This document shows, piece by piece, positions 41,520 to 54,518 of a DNA stretch of 64,000 nucleotides (positions are counted from its first letter, which is position 1; every line of letters starts with the position of its first letter). Source of the stretch: Actinomucor elegans (Eukaryota > Mucoromycota > Mucoromycetes > Mucorales > Mucoraceae). Location: the NCBI GenBank assembly GCA_026027325.1, contig JAMSLZ010000005.1:496001-560000 (forward strand), written 5' to 3'. Made by a program: the position numbers and the translations under genes. Below the pieces are notes generated by a model, which saw only the letters and a list, made by a program, of their open reading frames with translations, was not told the DNA's origin and did no database searches.

Positions 41520-42733
41520 AGTGAAGGGTAAAAGAGAGAAAAGAGAAAAAAAAAAGAATACTGTTTTTATATAGAATTAAAATATAACGATCATCATGTT
41601 CAATCTTGGTTTGACAATAGAATAGAACAGCCCAGGCTGTGCTCTTATTGCCTGTTTTATAATTAAAATTGCGCCAAATCAACAATATAATGCATAAAGA
41701 ACATCGATTTTAAATAAGGTTAATCAATGCCACGTTGTTGATATATTCTAACATCTATTCCGTTTTCCGATTTTCTTCATTTTGCCTTGTTTCCGGATTG
41801 AGTATTTTGACAGAAGCATGGTCTGTGGTTTTATCTAATATTATACATGTACATTCGGTTGATATATAAAAACAGGCGACTATTTTAGGTAACCAATGCG
41901 TTCATCATTATAGTTACTTCTTTAGCTTACTCTAATTGCTTGTGTCAGTAAAATCGATCGATCGAATGCTAACAGACAAAGTGATTTGTCTAAATGAGGT
42001 AACAACCGATCTTTTTATCAGCCACAAATGAAGCCTGACAGGCCTGCTTCTTTCCTATTTCAAAGGAATATCCTATTGGTTCCAAGAAGTACCGCCAAAT
42101 ATGCACATTTTTCGCTGGTGTAACGGATCTTATTTCCTTACGCGTCTTTGCACTGTTTTCTGATTTGTCCAAATGCAACTTTTATAAAACTGTATAAACG
42201 TGTAACTCAACATGCAAAAAAAAAAAAAAAAAAAAAAATACCTTGGCATTTGAATATCTTGTCTTGACTAAAGAACCAAAGAATGCGATTGATGCAGTAG
42301 CGGTAACACCTCGTTTTGGCGATCAAGTATACAAATAAAATGTTGGGTTTAGCCAACCACAAGATAATCGTACGATTTCTATATAAAGTCTTGATAATCA
42401 TGTTTTTGTGCAAGAATTATGGAATTATTTTTGTTAATCTAGCCTCTGTAATGGAGTGCTCTCGTTCTCAGGAGAGAATGTTAACTTATAATACAGGAAT
42501 GCTCATGAATAGAGTTACGCAGGGCTGTTTCTCTATTTGACTTGGGCTATTTCCGATAATTGGGTATGTGGATCTTGTCAAGGTTAGTGTCATCGATCTT
42601 ACAGTTGAAAAATGCAGCTACCGACTGAACCCTGACGGCAGCAGCAAACCCCACAATAACAAATATTTCAATTTATACAGTTACCATTTGTTCTAATTCT
42701 TCATTTGCTGTCTGTGATTCAAAAACGAACAGC
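41520..42733. other. Intergenic region left of the transposon
   Basis: No gene supported. It contains an A-run at 42216-42238 and a minus-strand open frame at 41990-42178 without ATG (NVHIWRYF...KKQACQASF) that faintly recalls a BED zinc finger; not claimed. Confidence 0.4.
42731..42733. repeat. Target-site duplication, left (AGC)
   Basis: AGC directly precedes the left terminal inverted repeat; the same three bases follow the right end at 47973-47975. CMC/CACTA transposons usually duplicate 2-3 bp. Confidence 0.65.
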
Positions 42734-42747
42734 CACTATGGGAAAAA
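42734..42747 (+). repeat. Left terminal inverted repeat
   Basis: CACTATGGGAAAAA; pairs exactly with 47959-47972 on the other strand. Confidence 0.88.
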
Positions 42748-42749
42748 TT

Positions 42750-42899
42750 CGAGTGAATTTCGAGTGAATTTCAAGTTAACTCGGTTTGCAGGAGAATCGT
42801 TGCCGTTTCGAGTGAATTCAAGTTAACTTGCAATTCACCTGCAATTCACTTGAAAATCAGGTTAACCCGAAATTCACCTTAAATTAACTCGAAAAACAT
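42750..42899. repeat. Left subterminal motif array
   Basis: Imperfect direct and inverted copies of CGAGTGAATTTC, AAGTTAACTCG, GCAATTCACTTG and GTTAACCCG. They form the boundary zone between the terminal repeat and the 39-bp tandem array. Confidence 0.7.
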
Positions 42900-43055
42900 G
42901 TTAACTCGCAATTCACTTGCAATTCACTCGAAAAACATGTTAACTTGCAATTCACTTGCAATTCACTCGAAAAACATGTTAACTTGCAATTCACTTGCAA
43001 TTCACTCGAAAAACATGTTAACTTGCAATTCACTTGCAATTCACTCGAAAAGCAT
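42900..43055. repeat. 39-bp tandem repeat, four copies, in the left subterminal zone
   Basis: Four head-to-tail units start at 42900, 42939, 42978 and 43017. Each begins GTTAACTTGCAATTCACTTG and continues CAATTCACTCGAAAAACAT. Only isolated substitutions separate them (a C in unit 1, a G in unit 4). Each unit holds two AATTCACT boxes plus a GTTAAC palindrome. Confidence 0.9.
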
Positions 43056-43220
43056 GTTAACCTTCCTATGATTTCAACCACTTATATTTCAACCTTTTTT
43101 GCATGTATTAACCATGTATAGATAATGAAACAACATATGTGTAATGATGACTCTTTATTCAATAAGATAAACGATACAAAATGGGTATATAATATTAAGC
43201 TAATTATATTTACTGATATA

Positions 43221-43894
43221 TTACTGCAGTCCTTGATTTCTTGCATTTCTTAACTGCGCACCTTCCGCTTGAAGCCTACAAATGGGTGTTCATTTTTCTC
43301 TCCTTTTGATTCAATATGCAATAGTTATAGAATGTACACTTACACTTTCTTCCTGTTATATTTGCTTCTGTTAGTCCATTTTTCTTGCACAAGAAACTCG
43401 CAAGGCCAAAATCTTACACACTTGTTGATGATAGCAAGCCGTTCATCTGATGCTATCGACTGTTGTAGTGCCGACTGTATCATGGAGAGCTTATTAAGAG
43501 AAGAAAGCAGCCTCCAGCTTTTACATGCAGCTTCTGGGTTCTGCTGCGCAAAAGTTAGTACTGAAGAGAAAGCTTCTTGATCAAGTATTCCCATCAGGCT
43601 GCTGATATCTTCATCATTAGGCACTGGCTCCTTTAGGTGTTCTTTTAAAAAGCATTGGATATAGACTTTAGAATTTACTCTCCTTTGCTTCTTTGGCACT
43701 GGGATAGTTTTTGAGCTTCCTATGTTTAAAGAGGGTTGAAGCTTTTCATCGAAATAGTTTACGAGATCTTGTTTAAAATCTTCCATCCAAGGTGGAGGTA
43801 GATTTATTTGACTGTTAAGATCTCTGTCGTTTTCTCTGCTGCTGGATTGACTGGATTGGCTGGTCTGTCTAATTTGTCTTCTGTTAGCTGGCAT
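43221..43894 (-). CDS. Transposon accessory protein of unknown function
   Basis: Minus-strand exons 43894-43344 and 43275-43221 give 201 aa; the 68-nt intron has good donor (GTAAGT) and acceptor sites. I recognise no family. The N-terminus is Gln/Ser/Arg-rich (RQIRQTSQSSQSSSREN), followed by PPPWMEDFKQDLVNYFDEKL, a basic PKKQRR patch (possible nuclear signal) and a helical C-terminal half (WRLLSSLNKLSMIQSALQQS, NRSKYNRKK). It is transcribed away from the transposase from a shared spacer of about 610 nt inside the element. By position it may play the role of the second protein (TnpA-like) in plant CACTA elements; this is inference only. Confidence 0.6.
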
Positions 43895-44507
43895 GATTCT
43901 AATGATTTTATAAAATTTATGGAAAGAAATGAGTGCAAAAGAAATGCATGTAGTGGAACCATCTTTATATCATAAGCCCTGCAGTTAAAAATGGCTTTAA
44001 CTTAATAGGTATAGCCTGTGTCGGGAGAATCTTACCAGGAAGTGCTAGGTATCATATACAAAAAATCAGAACCTATTAGAGCTAATGTAACGTAATTATG
44101 CGTAATAAACAAACCTTGCTCGAATATTGATATCTCTCTTGTGGTGAAACGCACATATGGCACTCTGCATATATATATTAAGGAATGGGTTTCATCTAAC
44201 CATCCATCTAAAGAGGGAAGTTTGGATCACCGCTGAAAGGACAATTAATGCAGAGTGAACATATATTAAAAAAGACCTTTGATTGTTACCAAGAGACTAT
44301 TTTCTTTGAAATCTAAATACAAGACATACGTGCTAGATAGGATAGCTAAACTTACTTTAGATCAATAAAACCTCATAAAACGGTTTTAATTCATTTATTC
44401 GCTTTTTATTCAATTTTTACCGCATCTCTAAAACTGTGCATATAATACGTGCAGAGTCCCAACGCTTTTACCTTTATTTTACTCTTTCGCCTATTTCAAC
44501 AAGAATA
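43895..44507. promoter_or_regulatory. Internal divergent promoter of the transposon
   Basis: A 613-nt AT-rich spacer between the two oppositely directed transposon genes. It holds no open frame of note and should contain both start sites. Confidence 0.5.
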
Positions 44508-47500
44508 ATGCCTGGTGAAAACTGCCCAGTGTGTCAACAGTACTTTACTAAAAAAGAAATAAGAAGGCATATTATCAATTGCAGAATGCGACGTGCTTTC
44601 AATATATATAGTCAAGTAAAGCAGAAACTTACACTATCTCAGCAAGGTCATTTCGCCAGTAACCCTTATGTATCAGATGATCTTTTAAACCATGAAACGC
44701 AACATCAATCAAGCACTGATATTGTAAATAACAATCCTGCTGATATTTTACGAACAAGCCACTGTGATTTCAGTAACTCTGTAGATATGAACAGCTTGGA
44801 TGAATGCGACTCTATAGCGAATGAAGAAGAAAATTCAGAAAAAACTAAGGTAATACAAGAAGGTTGGCGAACAGTTGGCGCTATAGAAGAAGACGCAATA
44901 AAAAAAACCACAGTGGAAGAAATATACTCTAGATTAAGCAAATTCAAAGATACTATTACCCATCCTATTCAGCTTAAAATCAAGGACGATGGTAAACAGT
45001 ACATGGATATTTTAAGTCCTCCAGAGAGGAAAAGTCTAGAACTGAAGTATCTCTTAAAAGAAAACAATGTATCAAAAAGTACGACCGAAAAAATATTCAA
45101 CTTCTTCAATGAGTACTTAATTGAGATGAATAGTGGTATAGTTATTATTTCCATCTTGCTGCTTTACTACTACCAGTGTGCTCACTGCTATTCTTATTTT
45201 CTTTTATAGAACATCTAAAATTCATCAGCCCGTATAAATGCGAAAGCATTAATAATAATCATATAATCCAACTTCAAGCTGATAAATATGACATGTGTCC
45301 TGAAGGGTGCTACATGTATTACCCTGGTGACAGTCAAACTGCTTGCCCTAGGTTAAGTTGCAAGAGACATCGTTATGAAGAGACATCGTCCACATCAACT
45401 ATCATGGAAGCTAAAGCCAAGCATTACCAACTATCACTTAGTAAGCAGTTGGCCTATTTTATGCTGTCTGAAAAGAATAGGAAGAAGTTGAAATATAAAG
45501 CTACGCGTAGCTCTGTGTATAGTTCAACCGATGAGCTTGATGGCTGCGAGAGAGATATATTGGATGGATTCGCTTTTAAAAGTAGAAATAGTGACGCCGA
45601 AGAAGACTATAACCTCTCGCTCTCGTTCCATTACGATGGATTCCATCCTTTTGACACAGGTGATAATAGTATGGCAATTATCATGTTTACTATTAATGAT
45701 ATACCACCAGAACAAAGGTACAAAACAAAATAACTTGGCGCTGAAACTTTAATGGATAAATTAAATGCTCTATTATAGATTTGATCCAGAAAACAGACTG
45801 ATCGTTGCCGTCATACCTGGTCCGAGAAAACCCTATGATATCTTTAGTTTCCTTTATCCTACCATCCAGGAGCTTCTCGTTTTGGAAACAGAAGGCATTA
45901 TTGTCGAAACAGGAACCTCTTCCATCCGTATAAAGGCCCACTTATTAAACATAATTGGTGATATTCCTGGACTATCAGAGCTATGTTTACATGCTGGCCA
46001 TAATTCTTACCATGGATGCCGCATTTGCAAGATCAAAGGCATTTATTCCAAATCAAAAAGGACTATAGTTTTTCCTGGAACAAATGAAGCACAAGAGCCC
46101 ATTGAATACCCATTAAGGACTTCTGAGGATTATCAAAACGGTGACTTGGTAAGAAGCTTAATAAATTAAACAATAGTAACTGTATCAGTGTCTAATGCAG
46201 TATGATTTGATTAACTATCTAGGCTACTTCACTCAAAGGGAAATTGCCATTTGCATTATTAAAAAGCTTTCATGGATGTTCATTTTTTGGATTAGATGAG
46301 ATGCACTTATGGGGAATGAATATAGCCAAGCACATATGGTCCATGATGAAGGATGACTCTCAGAGATTCGGATACTATAACCCTTTGTTCCTTCGGAACG
46401 CCTATAGAGAAGAAATTGGCAGAGCAATGGTTCAAATACAACGAATGCTTCCAAATGGAGCCATTGATGGTCAATTTATAGGTATTAGAGATTAACTCAA
46501 GAAACTTAATGCTAATTATTCCAATGAATTAATATCCTTGCTTTTTTCTTCACTTAGATATTTCTTCCAAATCAGGCCAATCTCGTAGCGTTGACTGGAT
46601 TGATTTTTTAATGTACATAGTACCCACTTTGGTAGTGGAGGCGTTACGAAAACAACATGCTGATATTTACCAAACCGAAAGAAATAGAAAAAAGAAGAGA
46701 AAGGTAGCTTCTCCTGTACTGGAAGCTGTTGATGATGCGTGCAATGCTTTGAAATCAATATCCATGGTCTGCACTTTGACCCAAAAATTCAACATATATC
46801 CAAGTGATCTGTTACGGATTGATGAGTAAGTTTTTTTTTTGAGAGACTACTACGTGCAGCTATGCTAAGTTTTCGATAATTTATATCGTCTTTTCATTCT
46901 AGATTAGTAAAAAGATGGCATGCGTTCTTACTGCAGAAGATGGGAAAAGATACATTTACCATTAACCAGCATTATCTAAAACATTTGTCCTATATTATTT
47001 TTCAGCTTGGTCCACTTAGATTGATAAGCGCCCGAACTCTTGAAAGAAGTATTCAAGATGTAAAAAGACATATCAAGTCTAAACAAAATCCTCAAAAAAA
47101 CTCTGTCACTGTTCTAATGGATCACTACACAAAAGCGTATAAAAACTGGCAGATTGGAATTGAAAGCCATAGTGTTGATGAAGATATGGTATTTAAACCT
47201 TCTTCTGCTGACTTAATCAACCAATTATTTCCAACGTGTGATATTAAGCATCTAATCCAGCAATATCTAGCCGATCATAATGGTTCCAGTTCAACAGAAG
47301 AGGAGTACTCTGTTTCTACTTCTAATACTTACGGTAAAACGAGGAATGGCCAAACCGTTGATATTTCTTCAAGAAAACAAAACCAAAAGATAGTTGCATA
47401 CATATCAGATGATACTATGTCCTTACAATATAATATAGGCCAAGTAAAGCAGTTTATTAGATGGAAAGATCAAATACTTGCCTTATTACAACATCAAACG

Positions 47501-47662
47501 ACTTTAGTGTTTGATGGTCAAACATGCTGCTATTATACGCAACCCTATGAAGAAAGGCTCCTATGGAAAATAATCAAAGCCAAGGACATAATAGGATATG
47601 CTATACTTATACCTTCTTTATTAAATAAAGACAAAACATATGTTGCTTGGAGACCTTATTAA
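44508..47662 (+). CDS. CMC/CACTA-superfamily transposase (Tnp2-like)
   Basis: Exons 44508-45135, 45210-45717, 45779-46148, 46223-46481, 46558-46825 and 46903-47662 give 930 aa with no internal stop. An N-terminal zinc finger is visible (CPVCQQYFTKKEIRRHIINC, a C2HC pattern). A second cysteine cluster (CPEGCYMYY, CPRLSCKRH) precedes the catalytic core. Core elements fit Tnp2-type enzymes: LSFHYDGFHPF (first Asp), VAVIPGPRKPYDI, GDIPGLSELC with CRICK, FGLDEMHLWGMN (Asp in the D-x-MH motif) and, later, HYLKHLSYIIFQLGP with SARTLERSI. These order and spacing features are family knowledge; the assignment of catalytic residues is inference. The C-terminal 250 residues are divergent. Confidence 0.85.
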
Positions 47663-47699
47663 ACCAAGTACATATATAAATTTATTCTATACTATCAAT

Positions 47700-47958
47700 G
47701 CTGTCTTATATTCGTTGAAACCAGAGCTCTGCTTCACTGTTTAGTTTAACATACAATTTACTCGAACTAGCTCCATATTCACTCCAATTGGGAAACATGG
47801 AAATTCATGGAAAAATAATGGAAATAAAAGTTAAGGTGCATTAACCTGGTTTCCAAGTTGCCATGAAATTCACTTTATTTCACTTTAAATTCAGGTGAAA
47901 GCACTAATTCACTTGAAATTCACTTGATTTTGCCATGAATTCACTTTATTTCACTTTT
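47700..47958. repeat. Right subterminal motif array
   Basis: About ten imperfect AATTCACTT or TTTCACTTTA boxes and a GGTGCATTAACC palindrome-like segment before the right terminal repeat. It mirrors the left array but has no 39-bp tandem units. Confidence 0.7.
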
Positions 47959-47972
47959 TTTTTCCCATAGTG
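47959..47972 (-). repeat. Right terminal inverted repeat
   Basis: TTTTTCCCATAGTG, exact reverse complement of the left end. Confidence 0.88.
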
Positions 47973-47975
47973 AGC
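47973..47975. repeat. Target-site duplication, right (AGC)
   Basis: Matches the AGC at 42731-42733. Confidence 0.65.
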
Positions 47976-49146: not shown

Positions 49147-50471
49147 ATGGCTTACGCATACAATTCGGCAATGCAGAGAGGTATGTCCTTTCAAGAAGCT
49201 TCTTACGACCAATCCGCAGCACCGCCAAGCCGAACTTTATGGTACTTGTTGTCATAAACTTATTCAACCTTTCATGACTAAAGCATCCACACATGTATTG
49301 TAGGATGGGTGAACTAGATCCTTGGATGGATGAAAACTATTTACGTCAATTATGGTGGAGTTTGGGAGAAGAAGTAACATGTCGTATTAGTATTGACAAG
49401 TATGGCGGCAATTACGCGTTCATTGACTTTGCAACGCATGAAGGTGCCAGTAAACTGCTGCAGACTTTAAATGGAACGCAAATTCCCAACACCAACAAGT
49501 ACTTCAAGCTGAATTGGTCCAACAGAGACGGCAACGGCATGCTTATTATGAACAGGTAAAGTAGTTTACGCGTCAAAAAATCACAAATATTCATGCTTGT
49601 TTAGCACTGCTCCAGTAGGAGGAGGGCCCGCTATGGGAGGTGATTTCAGTATCTTTGTTGGTGATTTAGGACCTGATGTGGATGATAATGTATTAATGGC
49701 AGCATTTCAAAGCAGATACCCTTCGATTCGTTCAGCAAAAGTACTAATTGATCCAGCAACAGGGTATTCGAGAGGATTCGGCTTTATTCGGTTTTATGAT
49801 GAGAGCGATCAGCAAAGATCTCTGGAAGAAATGCAAGGGGTTTATGTTGGTTCTAGACCTATAAGAGTCTCGGTTGCTCGGCCTAGAGCAAAATTTGATG
49901 TAGGATTAAATCCACATACACCAGAATCAGAAATCACAACCGTCTTTGTGGGTGGATTGAACAATACTATTACAGAAGAAGAATTGCGCGCCTACTTTGG
50001 TACTTATGGAGATATTTTAGCTGTCAAAATCATTCCCAATAAGAATATCGCGTTTATACAGTATGAACAGAGAGTTTCAGCCGAACAATCGATTGCAGAA
50101 TTGAACGGGTCTCATCTAGGCGGAGCAAAATTGAGATTATCGTTTGGAAGAACTCAATTGAATACTGGAGGGTAAGTTCATTACGAATGACTTTGCTGGA
50201 GAAATTAACACAATGAGGTAGATTTCATTACGCTCCTGCCTCTATGAACTACGGAAATGGTGCGGTACCTCAAGCTCAGCCAACTATGTTTCAACCACCA
50301 ATGCCTCCACAACCCCTACCACCACCACAACCTATTATTGACCTTGTTGATCCTAGAAAACCAGTCGACGTTCAAGTGCAGAATGATCTGTTTCTGAATC
50401 ATCAACTATCCCATTGTCTGGATTGGAATTCATCCTTGTCTGCAAGTGAAACCTCCAAAAAGTTAACTTAA
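49147..50471 (+). CDS. Three-RRM RNA-binding protein, Nam8/TIA1/SECp43 type
   Basis: Exons 49147-49241, 49304-49555, 49605-50171 and 50222-50471 give 387 aa. The first exon rebuilds the signature TLWMGELDPWMDENYL across the splice (TG/G makes the Trp), which fixes the start at 49147. RRM1 is at about 30-115, RRM2 (FSIFVGDLGPDVDDNVL, YSRGFGFIRF) at 127-205 and RRM3 (TTVFVGGLNNTITEEELR, KNIAFIQYE) at 225-300. The C-terminus is Pro/Gln-rich (PPMPPQPLPPPQP). In yeasts Nam8 is a U1 snRNP splicing factor; related Csx1 and TIA1 proteins act in mRNA stability. It ends 68 nt before the RdRP start, same strand. Confidence 0.9.
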
Positions 50472-50538: not shown

Positions 50539-53500
50539 ATGTCAAGTAAGAATCATACACCAAGCAAGTGGATTTGTAATAACCAAATGTTTTTCGCATA
50601 GACAGTAATCGAAATCGTTATAACAACCGAGATTTACCTCGCACATTCTTGGTGTCTAACTTAAATCAGTCCACTGTACCAAATACCCTGATGAATTACT
50701 TTGATAAGTTTGGCACGGTTGAAGACGTAATCTTGAGCGAGGAAGATGACGACAACGGCAGAACTCAGTATATTGCTACTATTACTTACAAGTAAGCGCT
50801 TTTTGTTAATCCATAGTCTCGCATATTCACTTTCTTGTAGGTCTTCCCCGAAAAAGATCGAACCTATTGTTAGATCGCATCGCATTGATGGCAAACACGT
50901 CAAAGTTGAAGCTATTCGTAACCAATTCAATGGATACCACAACAGCAAGGATAATGTATCAAGGATGCTTGCTCGTTCTTTCAGTATGGGTAGTATGATT
51001 AGTCCTAAGAATTTTGTTGAAGAATGGAGCACTACTGGCAACGTTAGATTCTTATTAAACTACACTAGACGTCGCTTTACTCTTTTCTTTACGCACTTGG
51101 AGGAGGAGTACAGGGTTGAATTCAAATTCAAAGACCTTTCTGAAAATATATATGTTGAACGCGAGAATCCTGTCACTGTTTTTACTATCCAATTACGTTA
51201 TCCCGGTATCTACTTTAAAAGAAGCAGCGAGGACGTAACCGAGACAAGGTTTTCAGCAAGAAGAGGAAGACAATGGAGTCGAGTGGCGCTGATTCCTTTA
51301 ACGAATGATGCAAAAATAATCACTCTTCCGTCCGTTCCCATTCTTCCTATTCCTCAGAAGGATACACTTAATCTCGGTAACTGGCTTGTGTTTCGCATCA
51401 TGTTTAATCCTTCGCAGCACAATGCCGAGGAGTTTGAAAATGCATTAAAAGAAGCAGCTGATTTCAACCTCGTACCTCGCGAACTGGGCTTGAAGCGAAA
51501 CTTTATTAAAGTCACTCAAGCAAAAGATCTGCCAAAACCATTCGGCCATGTTGAACGCTGTGCGCTACTCAAAGATAAATTCAATGTTCTGTATATGCTT
51601 GAATCAGTCATATCGTTTCATTATTTCAATGAATACAATCTCGATCAAAAGTTCTATTCTGATCTTGCCAGCCTCGACGAGAAAGTGGCTTGCGGTATTC
51701 TCCAATTGATCAGCGTCGCAAAACAAAGGATATGGGATCCATCCCTCGAGTTTAGTAAAATCTGGGACAAAATGGGCATGAAAGTAATAGATGAACGTAA
51801 TATCCCTAGTCACTGTGCAATGCTCCGCAAAGTGATCATCACTCCCACTCAAATCTATATCCAAACGCCTACACTGGAAACCACTAACCGTGTTGTCCGT
51901 CATTTCAAGGATCAATCAGACGGGTTCGTTCGTATTCAGTTTATGGATGAAGGTTTCAATCGTGTAGGCGCAGCTCAAGCAGCTTTAACGAAGGAAGCCA
52001 TCTATAATCGCATCTATAATATCCTTAAGCGAGGAATTCAAATAGGAACAAAGCGCTATGAATTCCTAGCCTTTTCAAGTTCTCAGTTACGTGAACAGGG
52101 CTGCTGGTTCTTTGCCCCCACGAAGAATTTAACTGCCGCTGACATTCGGCAATGGATGGGTGTCTTTTCTCATGAGAAAGTGGTGGCCAAACATGCTGTG
52201 CGTATGGGCCAATGTTTCTCATCAACTCGACCTGTTTATACGCTGCAGCCTCAAGATGTACAATATATTGAAGATGTCATACATAACGGTCATACTTTTT
52301 CTGATGGTGTCGGCAAGATCTCTTCCTCTTTAGCTGAAGAAGTAGCCATTCGAATGGATTTGAAGACCGTACCTAGTGCTTTCCAGTTTCGTCTCGGTGG
52401 TGCCAAAGGTGTTTTGACCATTGATAAAGATCTGGATTCGAAAAATGTCAAGATCCAACTTCGACCAAGTCAGATTAAGTTTGAGTCTCAGCACTTGACT
52501 CTAGAAGTCATTCGTACCTCAACCTACATTCCTGGTTTCCTGAACCGGCAAGTAATTACTCTCTTATCGTCCTTGGGCGTGAAAGATGAAGTCTTTATGC
52601 AGCTTATGAATGATATGCTACGCGACGTGAACAAACTATTCCAACAATCTGAAGAAGCCATCCGTGTATTACAAGGTAACGCAGATGAGGCTGGTACTGC
52701 TACTTGTATGACCAAAATCATTGCAGCTGGCTTCTTTGAACGAGGTGACCCATACATTAAGAACTTGCTCAATTTGTTTCGCGTAAGTGTCCTGAAAGAC
52801 CTAAAGAAGAAGGCCAAGATTATCGTTCCTAATGGAGCCTATTTACTTGGCGTAATGGATGAAACTAACACACTGGAGGAAGGTGAGGTGTTTGTTCAAA
52901 TATGTGATACTTCAAACAATGGTGTTCGTCGTCAAATTATCACTGGTGAAGTGGTAGTCTTTCGAAATCCATGCTTCCATCCTGGTGATGTTCGTGTTGT
53001 AAAAGCTGTAGATAAAGAGGGCTTGCATCATTTGATGGATGTCGTCGTTTTTCCTGCCAAAGGACACCAAGACATTCCTAGTATGTGTTCTGGGGGAGAT
53101 TTAGACGGAGATGATTACACGTAAGTCTACTATCAACGATCACTGTATAATTCAGTAGCTGATATACCTTGATAGTGTATATTGGGACCCTAAGCTCCTA
53201 CCGCCCAAAAAGAACTATCCACCTATGAATTATAAAGCCGTGTCACCCCAGAAGGTGGACAAAGTTCGAATACGCGATATTATTCGATTCTTTGTCACAT
53301 ATATAGCCAATGATAACCTTGGATCGATTGCTAATTCTCATCTAGCACAAGCTGATATGAGTGACAAAGGTGCAATAGATGGAAAGTGCATTCGTTTGGC
53401 TCATCTTCATTCTGATGCTGTTGGTAGGCATATTTATATCAAGTGTCTCTGTTAAGTAGACTAACACAGGTATTAAAGATTTCCCCAAGTCCGGAAAACC

Positions 53501-54518
53501 TGCTTACCTCTCAAATGATCTGAAGCCAAAGGTTTATCCTGATTTTATGCAGAAAAAAGATAAGGAATCCTATCAATCGAAAAAGGTGCTTGGTGAAATC
53601 TTTCGTGCTATCGACAACTCTGACTATAAGAATTATCAATCGAATCTAACAGCTGAGACTGTGTATGACATTCGAATGCATGTGCCTGATAAAGACTTGT
53701 ATGTAGCTGAAGCCCGAGACCTTCGTCATGAATACAATCGAAACCTTGCTGCCTTGATGAATCAATTTGGTGTTCAGACCGAAGCCGAAATCTGTTCTGG
53801 TTATATTATCAAGTGGTTGAAAAAAGGCAAGAGCAAATCCAGATATGAGCAACACGATTATACCATGAAAGCAATGAAAACATTCAAGCTATTCTGGAAA
53901 AAGAGATTCGAGCAAGAATTTCTTGACAAGAATAAAAGCATTGACTTATCAAAGCGACACTGGATTGACGCAAAGGCTGCTGCTTGGTATTACGTTGCGT
54001 ACCATCCAGTTGAACGAAACAGGGATATGTCTGTGGAGGGTGGCTTCTTTAGTTTTCCTTGGTGTATCTATGAATATATTTGTGATATTGCTAAACGAAG
54101 CAAACGAGATATAGATATCAATGTGAATCCAGAGGCTGCCGCACCTATTCCCGAAGAAAAGATACAAGAAGGCAAGGTTAAATTATTGAAACAAAGGAAC
54201 CAGAATACATTCGAGATGGTGTTTGCCGAAGATAATTCGGATGATGATGATGATGATAGTGATGTCAGCGAGTATGAAGAATATGAATCTGAGGAATCAT
54301 CAGATACTGAGATTATTACTAGTAAGGATTTCTTTCCTTCCAGTAAAAATTTTGCTCATCGCAGCAACAATACTGAGTCAAGTGGAAGTACGCAATACAG
54401 TTCAAGCATCCTGAATCCTATTCATCAAAGACCTTTGGAGGCGCATCAATCTGTCGTAACTGCAGATATGAAAGATGAAGATTTGGAACAAGCGCTATTA
54501 GGATCCTTAAAGCTGTAA
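50539..54518 (+). CDS. Cellular RNA-dependent RNA polymerase with N-terminal RRM
   Basis: Exons 50539-50545, 50602-50791, 50841-53120, 53176-53423 and 53470-54518 give 1257 aa. An RRM-like fold at about residues 15-95 (RTFLVSNLNQSTVPNTLMNYF) precedes the QDE-1/RDR catalytic region. That region includes HTFSDGVGKISSSLAEEVA, FQFRLGGAKGVLTIDKDL, GEVVVFRNPCFHPGDVRVV and the catalytic loop CSGGDLDGDDYTVYWDP (about 815-830), whose three aspartates bind metal. The C-terminus is acidic (DDDDDDSDVSEYEEYESEE). These enzymes make double-stranded RNA for silencing and, in Mucorales, for RdRP-dependent mRNA decay. I cannot say which paralogue this is. The first exon holds only ATGTCAA. Confidence 0.93.

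Follow-up and report, generated by a model that had tools for sequence, protein, structure and literature searches.

The maize transposon En/Spm has CACTA ends and arrays of subterminal repeats, and it encodes a Tnp2-type transposase and a second protein, which arise as alternatively spliced products of a single transcription unit. To our knowledge, the way in which CACTA elements choose their targets is poorly understood. Among retrotransposons, Tf1 and Ty3 have their integration positioned by promoter-bound host proteins. Here we describe a transposon in a 64,000-nucleotide stretch of the Actinomucor elegans genome (contig JAMSLZ010000005.1, positions 496,001 to 560,000; the window), which is a CACTA element by kind; what is new is how its sites are chosen and marked. 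It shares with En/Spm the ends, the subterminal arrays and the pair of proteins, but its second gene is separate and divergent. In contrast to the retroelements Tf1 and Ty3, it is a cut-and-paste DNA transposon, which is also able to leave.

Among fungi, an active CACTA element, CNIRT6, has been described in Cryptococcus neoformans (PMC12810828). Like the A. elegans element it has inverted ends (24 bp long and of CACTG type in CNIRT6), a CMC transposase in which a DDE motif is conserved, target duplications that are 3 bp long and variable in sequence, and near-identical copies (PMC12810828). It differs in its length of ~7.5 kb and in being present as two full-length copies in the described isolates, and the consulted part of its description names neither a second gene nor a phased target motif (PMC12810828). 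Within the Mucorales, EnSpm was reported among the DNA elements, at one to a hundred copies, in all members sequenced in one study; the account, in the sections consulted, gives counts without structure, targets or scars (PMC7928374).

The A. elegans element spans 5239 bp and carries the same 14-bp terminal inverted repeat, CACTATGGGAAAAA, at both termini (CACTA..TAGTG) with zero mismatches. Counted on both strands, the hexamer TTCACT has 12 occurrences in the left 330 bp and eight in the right 240 bp, with three in the intervening 4669 bp. An earlier first-pass annotation, made from the sequence alone, had proposed a complete and possibly autonomous CACTA/CMC transposon with perfect ends, AGC on both sides and two subterminal arrays, and each of these structural points was confirmed. 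Its features, in window coordinates, are as follows.

42734..47972, complete CACTA element of 5239 bp, one of 55 complete copies
42731..42733, left target site duplication, AGC
47973..47975, right target site duplication, AGC
42734..42747, plus strand, left terminal inverted repeat, CACTATGGGAAAAA
47959..47972, minus strand, right terminal inverted repeat
42748..43061, left subterminal array, a 39-bp unit repeated 6.2 times plus TTCACT, the three terminal-most of which are directed outward
47733..47958, right subterminal array, eight TTCACT in a single orientation
42703..42714, minus strand, host target motif at the window copy (CAG-ACAG-CAAAT, which departs from C[CA]G-N4-CCAAT by one mismatch), its CCAAT-like part starting 26 bp from the element
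43340..43894, minus strand, second gene, divergent, a 184-amino-acid frame to the stop, for which no known family was found
44508..45135, plus strand, transposase exon 1, with an N-terminal Cys/His cluster recognised by eye
45210..45717, plus strand, transposase exon 2, with the first conserved Asp, residue 352
45779..46148, plus strand, transposase exon 3, with the second Asp, 440, and Cys 459 and 462
46223..46481, plus strand, transposase exon 4
46558..46825, plus strand, transposase exon 5
46903..47662, plus strand, transposase exon 6, with His 701, His 705 and Glu 725

The six predicted exons do join into 930 codons and a stop, as that annotation had proposed, with GT..AG at all five introns. 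The product matched the Pfam family Transposase_21 (E 3.2e-11; 43.3 bits, cut-off 28.6). An alignment with two distant Tnp2 proteins, one public and one from the same genome, left D352, D440, C459, C462, H701, H705 and E725 invariant. The signature of CMC transposases is D, D, C(2)C, H(3-4)H, E (PMC12730594), and the Tnp2-type transposase of the window element keeps it as D-D-C2C-HxxxH-E. The element thus combines the CACTA-type terminal repeats, 3-bp duplication, Transposase_21 domain, catalytic signature and subterminal repeats of a CACTA/EnSpm (CMC) transposon. A placement between EnSpm and Plavaka, also suggested in the first pass, was dropped as unsupported: the protein scan listed Transposase_21, and the termini and 3-bp duplications are EnSpm-like. 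Plavaka termini are TGT..ACA or CATCA..TGATG (PMC12730594), whereas those found here are CACTA..TAGTG, and the Plavaka profile PF18759 matched neither the protein (E<=5) nor anything genome-wide, in a search in which no control genome matched either. Outside its own genome, the transposase had one distant homologous match. Other Transposase_21 families, larger and more distant, lie on many contigs of this genome; about 50 places have a frame, mostly of 314 amino acids, with 39% identity to exon 3, and others have frames of 306 and 783 amino acids. The earlier annotation did not include the second gene, on the minus strand, the number of copies, or the target motif and probable scars described below.

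Pairing of ends gave 55 complete copies in the 36.5-Mb genome. Genome-wide, the exact left end was found 58 times, the exact right end 56 times and reversed control patterns not at all, and the copies fetched have the same borders as the window element. None of the results that the first pass had listed as contrary to its reading was seen. Nineteen of the 25 copies read end to end, the window copy among them, are identical; five others have one small indel, and in the last, L043, there are 18 differences, most of which fall on the left. All six exons are identical to those of the window at 23 of 27 loci checked, a set of 27 that includes the partial copies L052 and L056. A 3-bp duplication flanks 47 of the 55 copies, compared to 1.2 expected from mismatched flanks. 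Two more (L005 and L006) have 4-bp duplications, which we considered as 1-nt palindromic scars and set aside because these are indistinguishable from a 4-bp stagger. The six exceptions are L045 (1 bp), L061, L099 (whose right end is damaged), L081, L111 and L117. The number of complete copies and the identity of many of them are indirect signs of mobility. We regard it as practically certain that the window element is an active CACTA element, recently mobile by cut-and-paste and of the EnSpm/CMC type, and its autonomy, given as possible in the first pass, is now supported as probable.

Insertion of this element is phased relative to a host motif, a result obtained in two sets of copies and held with very high confidence. 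The discovery set consisted of 25 copies with long flanks, and the test set of 30 set-aside copies, for which 30-bp flanks had been retrieved in order to score the duplications. In the discovery set, CCAAT reading outward from the element started 20-29 bp off in 18 of 25 copies, and the opposite orientation was seen in none. Among the set-aside copies CCAA lay at 26 bp in 16 and at 25 bp in five (21/30), compared to at most two at any distance from 0 to 24; since the flanks of L061 are also those of two loci in the discovery set, the independent count is 20 of 29. Longer flanks, obtained for 16 of the set-aside copies, gave CCAAT in 15 and CCAAC in one. Taken over all 55 copies, exact outward-reading CCAAT was located 25-27 bp off in 38 (26 bp, 31 copies; 25 bp, six; 27 bp, one), at 29 bp in L081 and at 28 bp in L111. 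In 11 copies CCAAT has one mismatch and C[CA]G ahead of it, four of these being judged from four letters, and L059, with three letters only, could not be scored. C[CA]G starts at 19 bp in 43 of 55 copies. Either end of the element may lie on the motif side, with the left end facing it in 22 and the right end in 17 of the 39 copies scored.

Read outward from the element, the full motif is TT-N-AA-N3-CCG-N4-CCAAT, although exact TT-N-AA is present at only 10 of 27 CCG-N4-CCAAT targets. All 30 occurrences of C[CA]G-N4-CCAAT in the available flanks (up to 60 bp) were at 25, 26 or 29 bp, compared to three in 25,000 positions 100-600 bp off. Such fixed spacing between insertion and host motif is a feature shared with elements whose integration is directed by host factors. 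In the genome as a whole, CCG-N4-CCAAT occurs at 1631 sites compared to 345 for the reversed control (4.7-fold), an excess that disappears with one extra base (CCG-N5-CCAAT, 369 sites; control, 360), and the full motif occurs at 372 sites compared to 0 for its reversed control. The full motif is apparently a host regulatory motif, and since its excess extends far beyond the occupied sites, it is very likely in use by some protein of the host. The CCAAT core points to NF-Y as the candidate docking factor; NF-YA gave three matches in the genome, all above the cut-off. Among the papers listed by a literature search on CCAAT-linked target preference of transposons (20 of 36 matches), none was on the subject, judged by titles and the beginnings of abstracts, which is weak evidence of novelty. 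Gene direction around the targets (outward frames at 16 of 23) was too weak to use. In the diverged relatives L009 and L026, which have the same terminal repeat, the motif was seen by eye at other distances, with CCAAC at 33 and CCAAT at 42.

At occupied sites the duplicated triplet is already part of a tandem in 25 of 47 cases, compared to 5.6% in the window. If such tandems come from earlier visits, empty sites should have triplets in the same phase, and any additional units should lie distal to the motif, a prediction that was fixed beforehand. We inspected the 40 bp upstream of 60 free full-motif sites, namely all those listed on contigs C1-C3 except three that are occupied and one beside L026, and saw no element ends at any of them. 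At 23 of the 60 (6, 9 and 8 per batch of 20), a triplet is duplicated such that the second copy begins exactly at -26 relative to CCAAT, compared to a background of 29 in 1200 (2.4%; binomial p 6e-22). Periods of 1, 2 and 4-9 reached at most three of 60 around the site, and the -26 peak had fallen to background by -23. The triplet was repeated away from the motif at 23 free sites and toward it at one. The corresponding figures for 40 occupied sites, a set that excludes four sites lacking a duplication and 11 whose motif was too weak, were 19 away, two toward and 19 without an extra triplet. No clear excess appeared when a spacer was allowed within the scar or when a match of two letters out of three was accepted, the latter class numbering 13 of 37 at -26 compared to 2-10 at the other positions. 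From their period, phase and side in this one genome, the -26 triplets are probably excision scars.

A different mark was observed at three resident copies, L081, L111 and L117, which are arranged as X-element-rc(X)-X or as the mirror image of this (3/55, compared to 0.11 expected from mismatched flanks). The same pattern fits L056, an older deletion copy outside the 55 that is ~10% diverged and has an AT-rich flank. All four have C[CA]G starting at 22 rather than 19 bp on the side that carries the extra triplet. CCAAT lies at 29 bp in L081 and L056 and at 28 bp in L111; in L117, the weakest case, CAAAT is at 28 bp. An extra triplet added on that side would explain the shift of the motif at L081 and L111. 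By analogy, the palindromic triplets fit cutting of one end, formation of a flank hairpin and rejoining, the route proposed for Ac/Ds (PMC5873905). Excision of Ac/Ds in Candida albicans likewise leaves palindromic scars, made of P nucleotides and at most 3 nt long (PMC5873905). However, Ac/Ds belongs to another superfamily, and in A. elegans the palindromes flank resident copies whereas free sites have mostly clean direct triplets. No excess of palindromes was found at -26 of the free sites.

Three further arrangements were noted among the copies. At C13:13640-23892, two copies lie head-to-head, each with its right end facing outward, and the pair is bracketed by an ATA duplication; the inner junction was read and has no terminal repeat, and CCAAT is at 26 bp. 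Identical outer flanks recur at C23:3032067-3042270, and both places are near contig ends. The pair probably moved as one unit, in which case two right ends may suffice for transposition. At C12:1668494-1673694 (L061, L119, L120), the left flank matches that of L053 on C7 (98.7%) and the right flank that of L054 on C9 (97.4%), reflecting either recombination between copies or an assembly join. At L099/L100 (C23:2121216-2126454), the right end lacks its normal last bases and lies, by eye, inside a 12-bp palindrome, possibly another hairpin product.

The second gene would be extended to a product of ~201 amino acids by splicing of a putative 68-nt intron at 43276-43343. Its protein matched no Pfam family and has two relatives (97% identical over 92% of the query and 81% over 67%). 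Genome-wide, the gene was found at 55 places with equal top score and at weaker ones down to ~30% identity. Nonsilent and silent differences number 2:4 in L043 and 9:10 in L052, compared to 441:111 sites, and 32:9 in the decayed copy L056. The richness of L043 and L052 in silent changes suggests, with small counts, that the second protein has been kept by selection. It has 29 lysine and arginine compared to 21 aspartate and glutamate residues, and its predicted structure is all helical with a mean pLDDT of 44, too poor for a fold search. A match to a bacterial effector E3 ligase (E 0.00044 over 54 residues; E 0.052, far under the family cut-off) was treated as chance, although not disproved, as was one to a viral uncoating factor (E 0.43).

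The explanation that best covers these observations, and which we consider probable as a whole, is an active CACTA element with motif-phased targeting that leaves triplets on excision. By analogy with its family, the Tnp2 transposase, perhaps with the second-gene product, would bind the terminal and subterminal repeats, excise the element and join it to the target with a 3-bp stagger. The target is not random: the cut falls 26 bp (25-27) from CCAAT, on one side of the motif and with either element end facing it. The strand-transfer complex may dock on a host protein there, most plausibly NF-Y/HAP with a partner on CCG. Excision would often leave both copies of the 3-bp duplication as a tandem triplet at the same position, and repeated visits could extend it into a longer triplet repeat that grows away from the motif. 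Occasional cutting and rejoining of one end may produce the palindromic extra triplet.

Several points weigh against this reading. L040, L045 and L063 (3/55) lack a CCAAT preceded by C[CA]G even when one mismatch is allowed, about 9% of random sites are estimated to reach one mismatch at these offsets, and L061 is not independent, its flanks being paralogous to those of two discovery loci. The background positions of the scar test were picked after the table had been seen. At 18 free C[CA]G-N4-CCAAT sites picked without TT-N-AA, the -26 duplication was present at one, with no peak; by our own reading only three of these 18 have TT-N-AA. Excision itself is inferred, from one genome. Hairpin-type scars would also have to be rare, as is argued by the mostly perfect duplications and the lack of palindrome excess at free sites.

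Random insertion followed by selection for harmless copies near promoters is a most improbable alternative: three of 25 sites lie inside a stop-to-stop frame of at least 100 amino acids, as avoidance of genes might predict, but the proportion is much the same (0.14) for randomly chosen sites nearby, and selection cannot produce single-base phasing. A stronger contender, although we still favour it less than not, is that the transposase or the second-gene protein itself reads CCG-N4-CCAAT and needs no host protein. Near-rigid spacing is expected of one complex touching both sites, and the Cys/His cluster of exon 1 and the net basic charge of the second protein, for which no known family was found, are in keeping with this idea; against it, the motif is by eye unlike the subterminal repeats of the element and is over-represented far beyond the occupied sites. 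Between a host tether and direct recognition we regard the case for the tether as evenly balanced.

The scars have alternatives of their own. The -26 triplet repeats might be native to the host motif and merely exploited by the transposon, since duplication is similarly common at free (23/60) and occupied (21/40) sites. We judge this improbable: period 3 alone rises, which is the length of the duplication, and the peak is exactly at the cut and gone by -23, neither of which a native repeat need show. For L081, L111, L117 and L056, duplication-less insertion into ready-made palindromes is a somewhat better candidate but an unlikely one. All four are in triplet-rich or AT-rich flanks and free sites have no palindrome excess; however, the displacement of C[CA]G in every case is as an added triplet predicts, and three of 55 copies fit the pattern where 0.11 were expected.

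Elsewhere in the window, RNA-dependent RNA polymerase frames (50737-54518; Pfam RdRP, E 7e-157), a gene type of RNA silencing, start ~2.8 kb from the transposon copy, and a frame for an RNA recognition motif (RRM) protein (49552-50175) lies between them and the element.

We tentatively propose, as a possibility just short of an even one, that a host CCAAT complex docks this group of DNA transposons on ~1,600 CCG-N4-CCAAT sites, always with the same cut, and that their comings and goings write trinucleotide repeats beside a host regulatory motif, which would be a directed, fixed-phase origin of microsatellites. Phasing by a host motif to nearly the single base makes this a tractable system, with predicted landing sites, scars and a candidate host factor. 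If true, the proposal would explain how triplet microsatellites originate at defined positions, and past visits of a transposon would be recorded, and readable, in one genome.

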